Shown: positions 67 through 14,681 of the stretch, one piece after another | How the letters are laid out: each line of letters opens with the position of its first letter | How positions within the stretch are numbered: position 1 is the stretch's first letter | DNA from: a virus | Length of the DNA stretch: 20,370 bases | IMG/VR virus record: IMGVR_UViG_3300021598_000271 | Coordinates: 1 to 20,370 of that record | Direction: 5' to 3' (one strand) | The notes under the pieces: model-generated | Database searches by the model: none | Told to the model about the DNA's origin: nothing | The model's input: only the letters and a program-made list of their open reading frames with translations | Position numbers and translations under genes: made by a program

Positions 67-499
67 ATTTGCTCAGGGTCGCTTTGAAATGAAGAACCCT
101 GACAAATATGTAGGGAAGAAAACACCACTGGCTCGCAGCAGTTGGGAATTTGTTTTCATGCGCATGTTAGATGAACATCCTGGTGTAGAAAATTGGGCCA
201 GCGAAAGCATACAGATACCTTATAGAGATCCGTTGACTGGCAGATATACAATTTATGTTCCTGATTTTTTTATAGTTTACAAAGATAAAAACGGAAAAAA
301 ACACGCAGAAGTAGTAGAAGTTAAGCCTAGCAATCAAATGATGTTAGAACGTGTGGGTAAGAGTCTTTACAATCAAGAACAATATATAAAAAATATGGCT
401 AAATGGGAAGCCGCAAATGCTTGGTGCAAACAGCAGAGTGTGAAATTCCGTGTAATCAACGAAGATGACATTTTCCATCAAGGCGGAAAACGTAGATAA
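59..499 (+). CDS. 4: Head completion nuclease, T4 gp4-like
   Basis: A 146-aa protein matching the T4 gp4 (gp50/65) head completion family in size (about 150 aa in T4) and pattern. The family acts on filled heads before tail joining. Visible are a basic N-terminus with a KNPDKYVG segment, an SSWE motif near residue 29 followed by a FMRMLDEHP segment, and a PD...EVK arrangement (PDFF, then VVEVKP) typical of the PD-(D/E)xK nuclease fold, so the protein probably cuts or trims DNA. The ATG at 59 is chosen over an in-frame TTG at 29 because the protein from 59 has the expected family length; no strong Shine-Dalgarno decides it. The small terminase gene follows after 7 bases, so head completion and packaging genes are clustered. 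Confidence 0.85.
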   Translation: MPKFAQGRFEMKNPDKYVGKKTPLARSSWEFVFMRMLDEHPGVENWASESIQIPYRDPLTGRYTIYVPDFFIVYKDKNGKKHAEVVEVKPSNQMMLERVGKSLYNQEQYIKNMAKWEAANAWCKQQSVKFRVINEDDIFHQGGKRR

Positions 500-506
500 G
501 TACATT

Positions 507-986
507 ATGACTAAAAAATTAGAAGAATTATTTAATCTAGAATCTGATGCCGAAAAGCCTACCGAAGTTGTAGAGCCAGTCAAAGAGCATCAGGAAGTTC
601 GAAGCCTTGATGAAAGTTACAAAGCAGTGGCTGAAATAACCAAAGGTTTACCACAGATCAAAGAATTGGACGAATTAGACGATAAAGAACTAGATAGTCT
701 AGCAAAAAAAGCAGAAGACGCCTATGACGATCTTATGGATTTAGGCATGAATGTAGAAGTTAGGTATAGCGGACGTATTTTTGAAGTAGCAGGAACTATG
801 TTAAAAAATGCTATAGATGCTAAATCCGCTAAAATAGAGAAAAAATTAAAAGCAGTCGATCTTCAATTGAAAAAGTATAAGATAGACAAAGATAACAATG
901 AAGACCCTAATGATGTTATCAACGGACAGGGTTATATCATAACAGATCGCAACGAACTGCTGAAAAAACTAGGCAGTAAGGAATAA
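507..986 (+). CDS. 16: Terminase small subunit, T4 gp16-like
   Basis: A 159-aa, mostly helical, charged protein, close to the length of T4 gp16 (about 164 aa). Gp16 forms a ring that recognises DNA and regulates the gp17 motor. The central part (about residues 60-135) has long amphipathic helices that could form the coiled-coil core, with an Asp/Asn-rich loop and a short C-terminal helix after it. An in-frame ATG at 465 exists, but it would overlap gp4 by 35 bases; the ATG at 507, seven bases past the gp4 stop, is preferred. An imperfect late-box-like ATAAGTA lies just upstream (496-502). The assignment rests on size, composition and position near gp4 and gp17, because small terminases diverge strongly. 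Confidence 0.7.
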   Translation: MTKKLEELFNLESDAEKPTEVVEPVKEHQEVRSLDESYKAVAEITKGLPQIKELDELDDKELDSLAKKAEDAYDDLMDLGMNVEVRYSGRIFEVAGTMLKNAIDAKSAKIEKKLKAVDLQLKKYKIDKDNNEDPNDVINGQGYIITDRNELLKKLGSKE

Positions 987-989
987 ATA
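983..989 (+). promoter_or_regulatory. T4-type late promoter box for the 995 gene
   Basis: ATAAATA at 983-989 matches the core of the T4 late promoter (TATAAATA). Five bases (CACAT) separate it from the ATG at 995. T4 late transcription starts about six bases after the box, so the transcript would begin at or beside the start codon. An AGGA at 979-982 lies 12 bases from the ATG and overlaps the box, so it would not be in such an mRNA. Confidence 0.6.
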
Positions 990-994
990 CACAT

Positions 995-1561
995 ATGAAA
1001 AGTTTTAGACAATATCTTGCCGAAAGCCAAAAAGTTTACAGTTTCAAGGTAAAAGTTGCGGGCGATCTTCCTGGAAAATTTCAAGAAGGCCTAAAAAATC
1101 GCCTTGATCGTTGTAAAGTGTTAACACTAGAAAAAATCACTACGACTCCTATACAAAAGTTACCTTTAGATTTTCCAGGAATGGAAAACAAAGAAGTGCA
1201 TGTATTTGAAGTGATTTGTGAATATCCCATTACCAGTCCAGAAATCATTCAGGACATCAAAGGCATGGGATTAGACGAAGCATGTTTCAGAGTAAGAGGC
1301 AGCAGCGAGCCTTCAGAAGAAGAACAAGTTATTGCCACTAGCGAAACAAAAAGCGAAGCACTATTAAGTGAAACAGATCTTGATAAGAACACAGGCAAGA
1401 TCAAACACAAAGATTATTTTGGTGATGATTTTAATAAATCATTTCTGAAAGATTTAGAAAAATCAAGCAAGGCCCGTAAAAAAGATCAGGGACAGACTGA
1501 ATACAAACTGCCCAAGGCCAAGATCGACAAAGCAGGTACTAAGAGCCCAATGGGGAGTTAA
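995..1561 (+). CDS. Putative internal capsid protein with T4-type capsid-targeting N-terminus
   Basis: A 188-aa protein of unknown function. Its N-terminus, MKSFRQYLAE, closely resembles the T4 capsid-targeting sequence of internal proteins (MKTYQEFIAE type). In T4 this tag directs proteins into the prohead scaffold and is cut off after an (L/I)xE site by the gp21 protease; here LAE at residues 8-10 would be the cut site. The body (residues 15-110) looks like a compact alpha/beta domain, and the C-terminal 75 residues are Lys/Asp/Ser-rich and probably disordered. It has its own late-type promoter box 5 bp upstream, consistent with a virion component, and lies between the two terminase genes. 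What is seen is the N-terminal motif and late box; packaging into the head is inference. Confidence 0.6.
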   Translation: MKSFRQYLAESQKVYSFKVKVAGDLPGKFQEGLKNRLDRCKVLTLEKITTTPIQKLPLDFPGMENKEVHVFEVICEYPITSPEIIQDIKGMGLDEACFRVRGSSEPSEEEQVIATSETKSEALLSETDLDKNTGKIKHKDYFGDDFNKSFLKDLEKSSKARKKDQGQTEYKLPKAKIDKAGTKSPMGS

Positions 1562-1563
1562 TT

Positions 1564-2292
1564 ATGAATTTTCAAGAATTATTAGCAAAGATGCAGCAGT
1601 TAGATCGACCTGCATCTACAGTAGAACAAGTAACAGATGAAATGGGATGTGGAGACATGTCCCCATCAATGCCACCGGCCAATGAGCCTCCTGTGGCACC
1701 TCCTAGCATGAGCATTAATTTAAATGCTCAAGGTATGGACAACATTGAAGATCTAATGAAGTTAGTAACTAAGGTAAATCCAGATATGGACAAACCTAAT
1801 CTTCCTCCTTTACCTTCTATGGGCGACATGCCAAGCATTGCTTCAATTAAACCTGCTATGCCTCCTTTAAAGATGCTGCCAGATCTAGACAGTGAGCCAG
1901 AAGGTGATCATTCTGAGCCAGATGCTGATAACATGGGCGGTCCAAGCGACAATGATGCAGATAATAAAATTGATGTCATTCAGAAGTCTATGGGGGACAT
2001 TGACGGCGACGGCGACCATGATATGGACGACCATGATGCTGAGAAGAAAGATAAAAAAGACGAAAAAGAAGCATTTGGTAACTCACCAATTGGCGGTTCA
2101 GAGCCCGAGACAAAAGGTCTTGATGCTGCAATACCCGATGGTGACGATCTAAACAAGCCTAAGAAGAGTTTCAGTGGTAAGCCATATCGTGGCGACAACC
2201 CAATGGCTGCTAACGCATATGAAAGCACAGATTTACGTGCTCAAATCCGTGCAGAATTACAACGTAGATTAACAGAAGCAAAAAAATCTTGA
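1564..2292 (+). CDS. Acidic, Pro/Met-rich, low-complexity phage protein
   Basis: A 242-aa protein that starts two bases after the preceding stop, so it is probably co-transcribed with the capsid-targeted protein. The N-terminus (1-15) and C-terminus (222-239) look helical. Between them are a Pro/Met-rich stretch (31-107) and a very acidic one (108-170). Residues 145-156 contain a DxDxDG calcium-loop pattern (D145, D147, D149, G150), with Asp rather than Glu at the twelfth position, so cation binding is possible but unproven. The C-terminal LTEA (residues 236-239) also resembles a gp21-type cleavage site. No family of known function is recognised; context suggests a scaffold or internal head component. 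A terminator follows. Confidence 0.6.
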   Translation: MNFQELLAKMQQLDRPASTVEQVTDEMGCGDMSPSMPPANEPPVAPPSMSINLNAQGMDNIEDLMKLVTKVNPDMDKPNLPPLPSMGDMPSIASIKPAMPPLKMLPDLDSEPEGDHSEPDADNMGGPSDNDADNKIDVIQKSMGDIDGDGDHDMDDHDAEKKDKKDEKEAFGNSPIGGSEPETKGLDAAIPDGDDLNKPKKSFSGKPYRGDNPMAANAYESTDLRAQIRAELQRRLTEAKKS

Positions 2293-2306
2293 AATAAAAA
2301 GAAAAT

Positions 2307-2319
2307 GCGTGGTTCACGC
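2307..2319 (+). other. Small hairpin upstream of the gp17 terminator
   Basis: A perfect 5-bp stem, GCGTG/CACGC, with a GTT loop, lies 15 bases after the 2292 stop and just before the terminator. It may protect the 3' end of the transcript or may be chance. Confidence 0.35.
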
Positions 2320-2325
2320 TAACTC

Positions 2326-2353
2326 AAATAGGCTCTTCGGGGCCTATTTTTTT
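2326..2353 (+). terminator. Rho-independent terminator with cTTCGg tetraloop
   Basis: A stem with core ATAGGCTC pairing to GGGCCTAT (one T-G pair), closed by a C(TTCG)G loop at 2335-2340, followed by a run of T to 2353. It ends the 16-to-2292 transcription unit directly before the late box of gp17. Confidence 0.85.
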
Positions 2354-2355
2354 CA

Positions 2356-2362
2356 GTAAATA
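2356..2362 (+). promoter_or_regulatory. T4-type late promoter box for gp17
   Basis: GTAAATA at 2356-2362 is followed by five bases (ATTAT) and the ATG at 2368, the same geometry as at 995 and 3966. It starts two bases after the terminator T-run. There is no Shine-Dalgarno between the T-run and the ATG. Confidence 0.6.
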
Positions 2363-2367
2363 ATTAT

Positions 2368-3954
2368 ATGGCAAAATCATTAGACGGTGTATTAATCAAG
2401 AAGGCTCATGCCCCACAGCGATATACACTAGAAGAAGTAAAACATCTCGAAGCATGTATGGATCCTATTACAGGGCCGTTATACTTCTGCAAGAATTTTT
2501 TAAAGATACAGCATCCTGTTCGAGGAGCAATTAAATTTGATCCTTATGAATATCAAGAAAGATTGATACAGGCCTATCACGAAAACAAGCAGTGTATCGC
2601 TATGTTACCACGTCAAATGGGTAAGACCACTTGCGCCACAGGTTATCTACTTTGGTACACTATGTTTGTACCAGAAGCACAAGTACTGATCGCTGCTCAC
2701 AAATATGAAGGTGCGCAGGACATTATGAATCGTTATAGATACGGTTATGAAAACTTGCCTGACTTTATTCGTGCTGGAGTTTATTCATATAATAGAAATA
2801 CAATTGAATATGATAACGGAAGTCGTATTCAAGCAACCACAACTACAGAAAATACAGGTCGTGGTAAATCTCTTTCTTTAATTTACTGTGACGAGTTTGC
2901 GTTTGTACAACCTCCAGAAAAAGCCAAAGAGTTCTGGACTGCACTATCACCGACATTGTCAACAGGCGGTAAATGTATTATTACATCAACTCCAAACTCG
3001 GACGAAGACCAGTTTGCTCTTATCTGGACTGAGGCTAATAACAGATTTGACGAACATGGCAACGAACAGAAATTAGGAATGAACGGGTTCCATAGTTATT
3101 TTGCACATTGGTCAGAACACCCAGATAGAGACGAAGAGTGGGCAAAAATAGAACGTGCAAAAATTGGCGAAGAACGTTTCCGCCGTGAGTTTGATTGTGA
3201 GTTTTTGATCTTTGATGAAACACTGATCAATGCAGTAAAACTAGCAGAACTCAAAGGTAGCGAACCTGTAATGACTATGGGTCAAACACGTTGGTATAAA
3301 GATATTGATCCAAGATGTACATATCTAGTGGCTCTAGATCCTAGTCTAGGAACTGGTGGAGACTATGCAGCCATACAGGTTTACGAAATGCCTTCAATGG
3401 AACAGGTAGCAGAATGGCGGCATAATCTAACCCCAGTACAATCACAGACTAAAAATCTTAGAGAAATATGTAATTACATCACAAGCAGAGGTAAAGAAAA
3501 AGGCGGCAACCCTACCATTTATTATTCAGTAGAAAATAACTCTGTGGGTGAAAGTGCTTTAATTTGTATCAGTAATATAGGAGAAGAAAACTTTCCGGGA
3601 TTATTTTTGTCAGAACCTATACGCAAAGGCCATGTACGCAGATTCCGAAAGGGTTTTAATACCACCCATAAATCTAAGATCAGTACTTGTAGCCAACTAA
3701 AACATATGTTAGAAACTGGAAAAATGCGTATACACAGCAAGCCTTTGATCAGCGAATTAAAAACCTTTGTGGCACACGGCATAGGTTTTGGAGCCAAAAC
3801 CGGCGAACACGATGACCTAGTTTCTAGCGTTCTATTAGTATTACGCATGGCTGCTATCTTAGCGGACTGGGATCCTAGAGTTTATGAAAAAATGACAGAT
3901 AAAATCACAGAAGATCAACTGCCTATGCCAATTTTTGTAAGTACAGGGTTTTGA
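2368..3954 (+). CDS. 17: Terminase large subunit (packaging ATPase/nuclease), T4 gp17-like
   Basis: A 528-aa motor that pumps DNA into the prohead and cuts concatemers; T4 gp17 is about 610 aa. The ATPase domain shows a Walker A of the T4 type (PRQMGKTT, 81-88), Walker B with catalytic Glu (LIYCDE, 171-176) and a coupling motif STPN (207-210). The C-terminal RNase H-like nuclease domain shows the three acidic positions: D324 in VALDPS, E389 in SVEN, and D482/D483 in HDDLVSS. All key residues are present, so it should be active. It follows a terminator and has its own late-type box, and its stop codon overlaps the late box of the next gene. Confidence 0.97.
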   Translation: MAKSLDGVLIKKAHAPQRYTLEEVKHLEACMDPITGPLYFCKNFLKIQHPVRGAIKFDPYEYQERLIQAYHENKQCIAMLPRQMGKTTCATGYLLWYTMFVPEAQVLIAAHKYEGAQDIMNRYRYGYENLPDFIRAGVYSYNRNTIEYDNGSRIQATTTTENTGRGKSLSLIYCDEFAFVQPPEKAKEFWTALSPTLSTGGKCIITSTPNSDEDQFALIWTEANNRFDEHGNEQKLGMNGFHSYFAHWSEHPDRDEEWAKIERAKIGEERFRREFDCEFLIFDETLINAVKLAELKGSEPVMTMGQTRWYKDIDPRCTYLVALDPSLGTGGDYAAIQVYEMPSMEQVAEWRHNLTPVQSQTKNLREICNYITSRGKEKGGNPTIYYSVENNSVGESALICISNIGEENFPGLFLSEPIRKGHVRRFRKGFNTTHKSKISTCSQLKHMLETGKMRIHSKPLISELKTFVAHGIGFGAKTGEHDDLVSSVLLVLRMAAILADWDPRVYEKMTDKITEDQLPMPIFVSTGF

Positions 3955-3960
3955 TAAATA
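3953..3960 (+). promoter_or_regulatory. T4-type late promoter box for the 3966 gene
   Basis: GATAAATA at 3953-3960 overlaps the gp17 stop codon and is followed by five bases (CACTT) and the ATG at 3966. No Shine-Dalgarno lies in a useful position. The box and spacer (ATAAATACAC) are nearly identical to those at 983-992. Confidence 0.6.
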
Positions 3961-3965
3961 CACTT

Positions 3966-5675
3966 ATGAATGCAACTAACAATATTGCCACCGATTTATT
4001 CTATAAAATACGCAGCCGTTTTCGCGGTTTAAAATTAGGCGACGAAACCGGTCAACTTACCATTAATCCAGAAGAAGCACGTTTTTTTGATTTTGATTAC
4101 ATGGAAGGTGAAACGCCAATTGGCCATGTTAGCATCAGTCTAGCCGAAGACAATTCTATGAAAGTGTATTTCAGCACTGGCATAACAGAAGGCATGGACA
4201 CACCGCAAAAAAATAATTGGTACGGATTTTTAAAAGAATTACGTACCTTTGCCAAACGTAGATTAATGGCTTTTGATACTAGAGACATCGCCAAAGATAA
4301 TTTAGACAAAAGAGATTACGAGTTCTTGAGTCAGCATAATAAACCTAAAGAACAACCAAATACTGTAATAAAGCCCGTTGGAGAATCAGTCATGAATGAA
4401 AGCACACTTTATGGTACTAAAACCATGAGTTATCAGAAATTAATGGATACACGCCTTATCATCAAACACAGTCAAGCAGTGATGGATGATACACAACCAG
4501 GTGCAAGAACAAGAAATATTTCTGCACTGTTTGTAGAAAATCAAGACGGTGAAAGATTCAAATATCCTTTCATTCATCTAGCAGGTGCTAGAGCCATGCA
4601 ACGTCATGTGGCCAACGGCGGACTACCATATGATGACCTTGGCAAAAGCATCATCCAAATGAGTGAAGAAATTGCACAACTAAAGAGTTTTGGAAATTAT
4701 GTTGTTCGCAACGATCTAATGAATTCAGATACCAATGGTATTGTAGAACGTAGTACACAGGCTCTAAACGATCTAAGAGAAACTATTCAGAAATTATCTA
4801 AGCAAACACATTACGAATCATACAAAGAAAATTTCCAAGCCCAAGAACATTTAGAAATACCACAAGACGTTGTAGAAGAATACAAAGAAAAATTCACAGT
4901 TAGAAATTTCAAAGAAGATATTAAATCAGTATTTCCTGTTATCTATCGTCTGATGCAGGAAGGAAGCACATTAGGCTACGCTGACATAGTCGCAATGACA
5001 CAAGAAAGCACAACCAACGACGAAGCCGAAATATTCGAGGATGACGAAGCCGAATCATTTAGCAAGTTTGAAAATTGGGTTATGACCTTAGGTGAAGAAT
5101 CTGCTATTACATCGTCTGATGAGGAAGAACAAAAAGCAGCCATGAAAGAATTACAAGAACTTGTAGGAGAACATTTTCCTGCAGGAGCAGATGGCAACAA
5201 TGCAATTCCAAGTTTAAAAGGCATCATTGATGATCCTCAATTATATCAGCAAATTAAACAACAGGCCAAAGAACAAGGCGAAGATAGTTGTGTGAGAGGG
5301 TTGGTTAAAGATTGGTTAGAATCCAATGCGCCTGAAGTTGTAGATCAATTAGATTTTGGGGACTTTACTGAAGAGCCAATGGCTGGAGAAGAGTCGCCAG
5401 AAGAAGAGCCGCAAATGGCAGACGTTGATCAAGAACACTCACAGAGATTAAATGTACAAGAATTGGCAGAATTTATAACTTCATTTTATGATCGAGAATC
5501 CGGAACTTTTCCAAAAGGTCCAGAAGGTGTAGCGATCATGGTAGGCAAGAAGTTCGGCGGACAGGCTGAAAGCGTGGCTCGTAAATTCGTAGAACGCATG
5601 GCTCCGCATCAGAGTACCGAACAAAATCCAGAACTGCAAGAATTGGCTCGTATCAAAGAACTTTCAGGCGTATAA
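3966..5675 (+). CDS. Large acidic phage protein, probable virion component
   Basis: A 569-aa protein of unknown function. The N-terminal part (1-125) is a mixed alpha/beta segment. A second module (about 148-240) has a GTKTMSYQKL start, an ARTRNISALFVEN strand region and an ARAMQRHVANGG helix. Residues 285-345 are helical, followed by two very acidic linkers (about 352-375 and 460-490) and a C-terminal helical segment ending in ELARIKELSGV. There is no signal peptide or membrane segment. The ATG at 3966 is preferred over an in-frame TTG at 3951 because it sits 5 bp from a late-type box. The late box, the position after gp17 and the length suggest a structural or head-associated protein, but no known T4 counterpart is recognised. 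Confidence 0.65.
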   Translation: MNATNNIATDLFYKIRSRFRGLKLGDETGQLTINPEEARFFDFDYMEGETPIGHVSISLAEDNSMKVYFSTGITEGMDTPQKNNWYGFLKELRTFAKRRLMAFDTRDIAKDNLDKRDYEFLSQHNKPKEQPNTVIKPVGESVMNESTLYGTKTMSYQKLMDTRLIIKHSQAVMDDTQPGARTRNISALFVENQDGERFKYPFIHLAGARAMQRHVANGGLPYDDLGKSIIQMSEEIAQLKSFGNYVVRNDLMNSDTNGIVERSTQALNDLRETIQKLSKQTHYESYKENFQAQEHLEIPQDVVEEYKEKFTVRNFKEDIKSVFPVIYRLMQEGSTLGYADIVAMTQESTTNDEAEIFEDDEAESFSKFENWVMTLGEESAITSSDEEEQKAAMKELQELVGEHFPAGADGNNAIPSLKGIIDDPQLYQQIKQQAKEQGEDSCVRGLVKDWLESNAPEVVDQLDFGDFTEEPMAGEESPEEEPQMADVDQEHSQRLNVQELAEFITSFYDRESGTFPKGPEGVAIMVGKKFGGQAESVARKFVERMAPHQSTEQNPELQELARIKELSGV

Positions 5676-6241: not shown

Positions 6242-6270
6242 TTGACCTTGCTAAATAAAAAGCGCATAAT
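6242..6270 (+). promoter_or_regulatory. Sigma70-type promoter of the gp32 gene
   Basis: TTGACC (6242-6247) and CATAAT (6265-6270) are separated by exactly 17 bp, each matching the sigma70 consensus at five of six positions. Transcription should start near 6277, giving a leader of about 50 bases before gp32. This is a host-polymerase promoter, fitting early or middle expression of replication genes. Confidence 0.75.
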
Positions 6271-13187: not shown

Positions 13188-13877
13188 TTACCCTAATAAA
13201 ATTTGGTGGTCGAATTCTACAGATTGATTTGATTCATCAGGAACTGGAACATTCCAGTGTCGTTTGCACATAATAAATTCAAATTTTTCTAAATCATCAA
13301 AGTCTTTACAACGATCCGGAAGATAAAAAAATGCATTAACACCTCTTGTGTCCACTGTTAAAAAGTTATATCCAGCGGAAGATAAAAGAGTTTTAAATGC
13401 AGAAAGACTAGCACCACAGTTTTTGATATGATAATTGTCTAAATTAGGTTTAACTGAGCAAATCAAATCTGGACCATAAAAGGAAAGATATTCTGTGCAA
13501 ATAATTGACGGAAAAAATTTATTAGAAAGTAATTCTTTTAATATCCAAAAGTCGATACTATCAATGTCTAAACTAAAGAAATCAGGTGACAAAGTAGACC
13601 AACTATTGATTAAATCTTTTATATTTGATAAATTGATTTGTTTAACATTATGTGTATAATTAGGATGAAACCATGCCTGATCTAACATATCGTGCCCAAT
13701 ACCATTATACCCATGATTCTCTATCAAATTTCTTAACATATTTTCGGTTCCGTTACCCGAACCTATTTCAATTGCTGTAAAATTTTTTTTGATTAATCGA
13801 GAAACCATTGTGTGAATAATACCATCTTCTAAATTCTGAGAGAAGTTTTTATATTCGTAAGATAATCTGTTTTTCAT
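13188..13877 (-). CDS. FkbM-like methyltransferase-fold protein
   Basis: A 229-aa protein starting with a YKNFSQNLEDGI segment that precedes EIGSGNGTENM (37-47), the glycine-rich SAM-binding motif. SLDIDSIDFWIL (102-113) corresponds to the D-x-D/G-x-x-x-W block of FkbM-type methyltransferases. The start at 13877 is chosen because a late-type box, GTAAATA, lies exactly 5 bp upstream on the minus strand. Earlier in-frame starts at 13916 and 13985 are rejected: 13985 would overlap the divergent gene. It is the first gene of the minus-strand glycan block and probably methylates a sugar; the C-terminal third is not recognised. Confidence 0.65.
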   Translation of the reverse strand: MKNRLSYEYKNFSQNLEDGIIHTMVSRLIKKNFTAIEIGSGNGTENMLRNLIENHGYNGIGHDMLDQAWFHPNYTHNVKQINLSNIKDLINSWSTLSPDFFSLDIDSIDFWILKELLSNKFFPSIICTEYLSFYGPDLICSVKPNLDNYHIKNCGASLSAFKTLLSSAGYNFLTVDTRGVNAFFYLPDRCKDFDDLEKFEFIMCKRHWNVPVPDESNQSVEFDHQILLG

Positions 13878-13882
13878 AAGAA

Positions 13883-13888
13883 TATTTA
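13883..13888 (-). promoter_or_regulatory. T4-type late promoter box for the minus glycan block
   Basis: Read on the minus strand, TAAATA is followed by TTCTT and the ATG at 13877, the same 5-bp geometry as the plus-strand late boxes. No Shine-Dalgarno lies between the box and the ATG. Confidence 0.55.
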
Positions 13889-13904: not shown

Positions 13905-13911
13905 ATAAATA
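13905..13911 (+). promoter_or_regulatory. T4-type late promoter box for the plus glycan block
   Basis: ATAAATA at 13905-13911, then TTCAT, then ATG at 13917. It sits 16 bases from the opposing late box, so the two major glycan blocks are driven apart from a 39-bp gap (13878-13916). Confidence 0.6.
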
Positions 13912-13916
13912 TTCAT

Positions 13917-14681
13917 ATGAAAAACATTGTAATTGTTACTGGCGGCTTTGACCCCATACATTCCGGGCATATTGCCTACATACAAGAAGCACGAAAATTA
14001 GGAGATTTCCTAGTTATAGGAGCCAATTCAGACGAGTGGCTTAGGCGTAAAAAGAAAAAAGAATTTATGCCTTGGATTGAACGTGCAGCCGTGCTATCTG
14101 CCTTATCTAATGTTGATCGTGTAATCAATTTTGATGACAGCGACAACAGCGCCAAGGATGCAATTAGAAAAGTAAGGTCTATATATCCTAATGATCATAT
14201 TATTTTTGCTAACGGTGGAGATCGAACTAATGCCAATATTCCTGAAATGGATATCAAAGATGAAAATCTGGAGTTTGTTTTTGGGGTAGGCGGCGAACAT
14301 AAAATGAATTCAAGTTCTTGGATATTGCAAGAATGGAAAGCGCCTAAGACTGAGCGTCAATGGGGCTATTGGCGGGTTTTACACGAGCAAGGCCAAGAGG
14401 TAAAGTTAAAAGAACTAACCGTTGCTCCCGGCAAAATGCTGTCAATGCAGAAGCATAAAGAAAGAGCAGAACATTGGTTTGTGGCTGACGGTACTGCTAC
14501 AGTTTATACTATCAATTCAAGTACTGATGCAGAATTGCACGGAGTATATAAAAAATTCCAACATATTCATATCAATCGTCAAGAGTGGCATCAATTGTGC
14601 AACGAAGGGGACACTCCCCTAAAGGTTATTGAAATTCAATACGGTGAAAATTGTATAGAAGAGGATATAGAAAGATTATGA
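13917..14681 (+). CDS. Nucleotidyltransferase / mannose-6-phosphate isomerase-type cupin fusion
   Basis: A 254-aa fusion. Residues 1-138 are a cytidylyltransferase-like fold with GGFDPIHSGH (9-18), where the H-x-G-H motif binds the nucleotide triphosphate, and an NSSSWIL segment near 131-137. Residues 141-254 match the cupin domain of type II phosphomannose isomerase / GDP-mannose pyrophosphorylase: RQWGYWRVL, then LSMQKHKERAEHW with likely metal ligands Q178, H180 and E185, and H225 further on. The chain ends at EEDIERL, where family members usually continue into a YGR segment with a catalytic Arg, so isomerase activity may be lost. The start is set by the late-type box 5 bp upstream. It overlaps the next gene by 4 bases (ATGA). 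Substrates are not known. Confidence 0.8.
   Translation: MKNIVIVTGGFDPIHSGHIAYIQEARKLGDFLVIGANSDEWLRRKKKKEFMPWIERAAVLSALSNVDRVINFDDSDNSAKDAIRKVRSIYPNDHIIFANGGDRTNANIPEMDIKDENLEFVFGVGGEHKMNSSSWILQEWKAPKTERQWGYWRVLHEQGQEVKLKELTVAPGKMLSMQKHKERAEHWFVADGTATVYTINSSTDAELHGVYKKFQHIHINRQEWHQLCNEGDTPLKVIEIQYGENCIEEDIERL

Follow-up and report, generated by a model that had tools for sequence, protein, structure and literature searches.

The window analysed here, i.e. the whole 20,370-nucleotide stretch of IMG/VR record IMGVR_UViG_3300021598_000271, is a 20-kb virus contig, a fragment of its genome. It belongs to a T4-superfamily phage and encodes a head-closure protein, the small and large terminase subunits, structural proteins, gp32 and UvsX. 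Its large terminase (TerL) shares 85–100% identity with the TerL of 80 IMG/VR loci, several of which sit on contigs of 270–364 kb, and ~53% with that of the isolate Pseudomonas jumbo phage PA5oct. A scan of genome contigs for a host-linked copy of the window found none, and neither Rfam nor tRNA scans gave a hit in it. Between 9336 and 20370, next to the replication genes, sugar-nucleotide, glycosyltransferase-like and methyltransferase-like genes follow one another in a long series, and many of these overlap start to stop. The features on which the analysis centres are the following, k being the number of bases between the candidate late box and the start codon:

497..509, plus strand: variant box TAAGTA (497-502), spacer CATT (N4) and ATG 507 of a small-terminase-like gene (phrog_16202; phrog_445, terminase small subunit)
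984..997, plus strand: box TAAATA (984-989), spacer CACAT and ATG 995 of a virion structural protein gene (phrog_14802); box at k=5 in 66/68 orthologues
2326..2353, plus strand: predicted intrinsic terminator with a 10-bp stem, UUCG loop and T-run, ending 3 nt 5' of the TerL box (fold -13 kcal/mol, z -5.2; also returned by the terminator scan)
2357..2370, plus strand: box TAAATA (2357-2362), spacer ATTAT and ATG 2368 of the terminase large subunit gene (phrog_36964, E 5e-117); box kept in 79/83 orthologues
3955..3968, plus strand: box TAAATA (3955-3960), spacer CACTT and ATG 3966 of a head/structural protein gene (phrog_13484); box kept in 78/78 orthologues
13875..13888, minus strand: box TAAATA (13888-13883), spacer TTCTT and ATG 13877 of a gene without PHROG match
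13906..13919, plus strand: box TAAATA (13906-13911), spacer TTCAT and ATG 13917 of a nucleotidyltransferase-like gene (phrog_7878); box kept in 21/23 orthologues

The five TAAATA-N5-ATG modules proposed by the first-pass annotation were all recovered at the ATGs it had named (995, 2368, 3966, 13877 minus and 13917 plus), the last two forming a divergent pair, while the TAAGTA-N4-ATG module at 497-509 and the terminator at 2326-2353, abutting the TerL box, had been overlooked. The five TAAATA modules hold one third of the 15 TAAATA hexamers of the window. Shuffled sequences contained 0.55 ± 0.76 modules on average, with a maximum of 3. For a fixed spacing, the probability that an ATG follows at least 5 of 15 TAAATA is 7e-6, rising to 3e-4 once corrected for 45 spacings, on the window alone. 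That five exact spacings are hard to attribute to chance, as initially argued, is hence borne out, and the relatives make the case overwhelming. The variant TAAGTA was kept in 66/66 orthologues of the small-terminase-like gene, at k=4 in 57 and k=5 in 9, with a T at -1 in all. The scarcity of TAAATA in the window (15 vs 31 expected) was set aside as a sign of selection, several other permutations of the hexamer being equally rare. A further late box (6252-6257) lies 72 nt upstream of the gp32 start (ATG 6330), within a sigma-70-like site matching 10/12 positions (6242-6270), and this gene, which bears a strong Shine-Dalgarno (SD) sequence, may be served by an early as well as a leadered late promoter.

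Comparison of the 5-base spacing with others, suggested as a check at the outset, was conducted across the 80 related loci, counting TAAATA-Nk-ATG wherever the ATG opened a frame of at least 60 codons. It revealed a sharp spike of 335 sites at k=5, flanked by 23 at k=4 and 12 at k=6, with most other spacings below 10. Seven of eight control hexamers gave 0–11 sites at k=4/5, vs 355 for TAAATA, while the eighth (AAATAT) shares positions with the real box. In addition to the orthologue families listed above, the box was kept in tail tube 2 (55/57), an HNH-like gene (32/34) and a neck-protein-like gene (24/35). The length of the spacer is fixed and its sequence free, with 8–20 distinct spacers per family. 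Upstream of TerL, among loci such as L199, L145, L192 and their kin, the box of some relatives stands 7–8 bases from the ATG instead of 5, and several carry TAAGTA-N5; the start geometry may differ between subclades. A secondary peak at k=31 was rejected as a single phenomenon, as it combines a real leadered tail sheath promoter with a chance coding-sequence match within a single structural gene.

The T4 late box TATAAATA spans -13 to -6 (PMC1524935), so that with an N5 spacer +1 falls on the A of the ATG, in agreement with the promoter layout cited in the first-pass annotation. As evidence independent of T4, the base preceding this A was examined in the k=5 genes of the window, of the relatives G001, G002 and G011 and of the cultured pelagiphage HTVC008M, taking starts that overlap the preceding gene as comparison. 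C or T occupied -1 in 66/71 k=5 genes and in 97/115 when all short-spaced genes are pooled, vs 152/384 (~40%) overlap starts (Fisher 4e-18); k=4 genes were less strict (21/33 pyrimidine). Bacterial transcription usually starts with a pyrimidine at -1 and a purine at +1, and we know of no translational role for a pyrimidine at -1.

At some genes, terminators leave the putative transcripts little space for a leader. A strong hairpin followed by a T-run ends 1–5 bases before the box at all 78 TerL loci and all 55 tube-2 loci tested. In the window, the gap from the TerL terminator to the ATG measures ~14 bases, in which the box is the sole candidate promoter, and a simple sigma-70 scan of the window was without plus-strand hits from 395 to 4272. 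No terminator precedes the box of gene 995 or that of gene 3966. No conserved block was found at -35..-30 in the G011 logo, nor any conserved -35 element among the k=5 sites of relatives, where a single moderate column (-34, T in 68%) probably reflects shared terminators and orthologues.

Short-spaced starts also differed markedly in their translation signals. Their mean SD energy was -0.54 kcal/mol, vs -4.05 at overlap starts (p 5e-31) and -4.88 where the same box lies 15–40 nt upstream (p 6e-25), and the start codons at k=5 comprised 184 distinct ATG, 2 TTG and no GTG, an AUG preference typical of leaderless translation (PMC9031893). Within the window, the initial statement that the five modules lack a usable SD applies to 2368 and 13917, and roughly to 3966 and 13877, with 995 as the exception: there AAGGA, a possible distant SD, stands just 5' of the box (duplex -6.1 kcal/mol), in the final codons of the gene before it; an SD-like motif recurs in 41/66 orthologues. 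This motif would be removed if initiation occurred at the box, yet could serve a read-through mRNA, and as no terminator precedes gene 995, the gene may also be read from an upstream mRNA. The clear SD sites attributed to 5807, 6330 and 7372 were found for the first two (-8.7 and -12.2 kcal/mol), that of 7372 being only modest (-4.0). CA-rich start regions help leaderless mRNAs; no enrichment in them was detected at these genes.

A second class of genes in the same genomes carries the same box further upstream, together with an SD: at 31–36 nt with an AGGAG-type SD for the tail sheath, at 20–22 (or 41–47) nt for tube 1, and at 18–26 nt for an epimerase. In G011, the distribution of spacings was bimodal, with 55 sites at k=4–6 and a second group at 23–31. 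Use of one box both ways in the same phages speaks for its being a promoter, the SD vanishing precisely where the leader does. For the major capsid gene, an SD is present and no box lies nearby, so that the notion of leaderless late genes holds only for a subset of them.

Genes for the machinery expected of such promoters were identified in part. All 12 relatives and comparison phages searched encode the late sigma factor gp55 (phrog_12791), which was detected in none of 14 controls; the window fragment does not reach gp55. A search for RNA polymerase beta (PF00562) was negative in all ten relatives and comparison phages examined and positive in all 14 controls. BLAST matches to gp33 and gp45 were obtained in HTVC008M only, and neither Pfam nor BLAST retrieved gp45 from the jumbo relatives, a weak test given that PF02916 also missed the clamps of P-SSM2 and HTVC008M, which are evident by annotation or BLAST.

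Taken together, these patterns are best explained by leaderless late mRNAs produced from a late promoter of the T4 type that is fused to the start codon, a reading to which we assign a probability of about 0.85 on the strength of sequence comparisons. The host's RNA polymerase, with gp55 as its phage-encoded sigma, would recognise TAAATA (or TAAGTA) as a -10 element, without a -35, and would start the RNA on the A of the ATG, yielding 5'-pppAUG messages devoid of leader and SD, at whose 5'-terminal AUG ribosomes would start via the leaderless route. The tail sheath, tube 1 and epimerase genes would retain the ancestral form, i.e. the same box, a leader of ~15–31 nt and then an SD, and one promoter type would consequently give rise to two translational classes of late genes. 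The promoter activity of the box, the exact start site and the leaderless mode of translation are all predicted here from genomic patterns. The original proposal of leaderless late genes therefore survives in a restricted form: nearly all the sequence-level predictions tested agreed with it, among them the enrichment of the 5-base spacing whose absence would, by the first-pass annotation, have refuted it, but it covers only a subset of late genes, sheath, tube 1 and epimerase being leadered.

Three other readings were weighed against this one. The hexamer, located at -11 to -6, might be an A/U-rich ribosome-binding element replacing the SD, on mRNAs initiated at promoters further upstream; it does occupy the SD position in genes that lack an SD, and the absence of a terminator before the boxes of 995 and 3966 would permit a read-through mRNA. 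We nevertheless consider this very improbable, as a strong terminator lies ~3–5 nt 5' of the box at every TerL and tube-2 locus tested, as the hexamer also occurs 20–36 nt upstream of SD-bearing late genes, where a ribosome site is impossible, and as the -1 pyrimidine and the gp55 gene would be left unexplained. It is likewise improbable that the promoter acts as proposed with a start 1–4 nt off the A, giving a very short leader and mRNAs that are not strictly leaderless. Bacterial RNA polymerase start sites commonly shift by 1–2 bases, spacings of 4, 6 and, in some relatives, 7–8 also exist, and k=4 sites are looser at -1, whereas the sharp mode at 5, the T4 geometry and the pyrimidine–purine step all indicate the A; such short-leader messages would moreover be functionally close to leaderless ones.

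Chance combined with shared ancestry, by which box-like hexamers near ATGs in AT-rich DNA would have been copied among close kin, could draw on the fact that many loci are near relatives (TerL 85–100% identical). This was refuted by spacers that vary freely at fixed length (8–20 kinds per family), by contigs of 57–59% GC holding 27 and 40 sites vs none for the reversed pattern, by the flat control hexamers, and by the lack of a clear excess in most of 16 isolate genomes. Within the reading of a late promoter fused to the start codon, we tentatively suggest that the box-to-ATG distance itself, and no separate regulator, may determine if a late message lacks a leader or is SD-led, setting protein dosage or exploiting ribosomes altered late in infection.

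Late transcription of T4 is a textbook case. Its promoters (gp55/gp33/gp45; TATAAATA) share with those described here the TAAATA core without -35, the position upstream of late virion genes and an encoded gp55. By contrast, T4 box-to-ATG distances cluster at ~24–28 and leave a leader, while a distance of 5 leaves none; the upstream T(-13)/A(-12) of T4 is not fixed in our phages (-12 is A in 55% and G in 22%; in G011, C in 60%), and one conserved gene family uses TAAGTA. The late promoters of the cyanophages S-PM2, Syn9 and P-SSM2 (NATAAATA) have the same core and sigma family (PMC2984593), but cyanophage boxes, like those of T4, are distant enough for a leader (P-SSM2 clusters at 21–25 nt), and none of these three genomes is enriched at k=5. 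Leaderless mRNAs of bacteria and of lambda cI (PMC9031893) similarly lack an SD, strongly prefer AUG and carry the start codon at the 5' end, as predicted here; they represent single genes or host-wide habits, whereas here one phage promoter class would be fused while sister promoters keep their leaders. The phiKZ late promoters (T-3 A T G+1) offer another jumbo-phage late motif overlapping an ATG-like sequence (PMC7598289), but depend on the phage's own multisubunit RNA polymerase, place +1 at the G of TATG and have no upstream -10-like box. T4 late promoters and leaderless mRNAs were each already known; a literature search, with subscription papers largely outside its reach, found no report of gp55-type late promoters fused to start codons.

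The trait extends well beyond the loci close to the window. Whole-genome counts of TAAATA-N5-ATG against a reversed-pattern control gave 40 vs 0 in G011 (578-kb contig, 59% GC) and 27 vs 0 in G009 (500-kb contig, 57% GC), together with 20 vs 5, 14 vs 4 and 17 vs 5 in the relatives G001, G002 and G007, respectively. Cultured pelagiphage HTVC008M yielded 14 vs 4, or 12 vs 1 when a pyrimidine was required at -1, and in its first 50 kb all 7 pyrimidine-at--1 sites coincided with starts annotated by the depositors, those of head closure, tube cap and baseplate genes among them. Among the 16 isolate genomes searched, no clear excess over control was seen in T4, P-SSM2, Syn9, S-PM2, GAP32, CBB, 121Q, Munch, XaC1, Vibrio 2.275.O, Atu_ph07, Phosso and PA5oct, a set that takes in cyanophages and enteric jumbo phages; with the pyrimidine filter Atu_ph07 gave 10 vs 3, and was not counted either way. 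Loci retrieved with the TerL of PA5oct and Phosso as queries displayed the same k=5 spike, and the idea of a trait restricted to a freshwater clade was dropped, as the Phosso-query loci, whose nearest kin form a separate lineage, spike too. On the TerL tree, where per-locus labels are noisy, the trait occupies the greater part of a 70-row clade, within which PA5oct is nested but lacks it, and recurs outside this clade, a distribution implying that gains or losses occurred.

The carriers constitute a large group of T4-like giant phages, mostly uncultured. If our reading is correct, a large jumbo-phage clade from freshwater and marine environments, and at least one cultured pelagiphage, would systematically use leaderless expression in virion assembly. 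Late-promoter prediction is reported to have failed in the genomes of a pelagimyophage study (PMC7029224), which fusion of the late box to start codons may explain. The module also offers gene callers a precise start rule in these genomes, and the natural leaderless/leadered gene pairs, sharing promoter type and genome, would allow the translation of leaderless messages to be measured. Phage-encoded bS21 was rejected as the cause of the trait: it was identified in 10/14 genomes (G001:33352-33510, G002:292290-292445, HTVC008M 91237-91392 and others), but also in PA5oct and Phosso, both devoid of the trait. Finally, the whole genome of Campylobacter phage CP30A (NC_018861) displayed a marginal excess, with 10 vs 5 sites, or 9 vs 2 with a pyrimidine at -1, and may represent another case.
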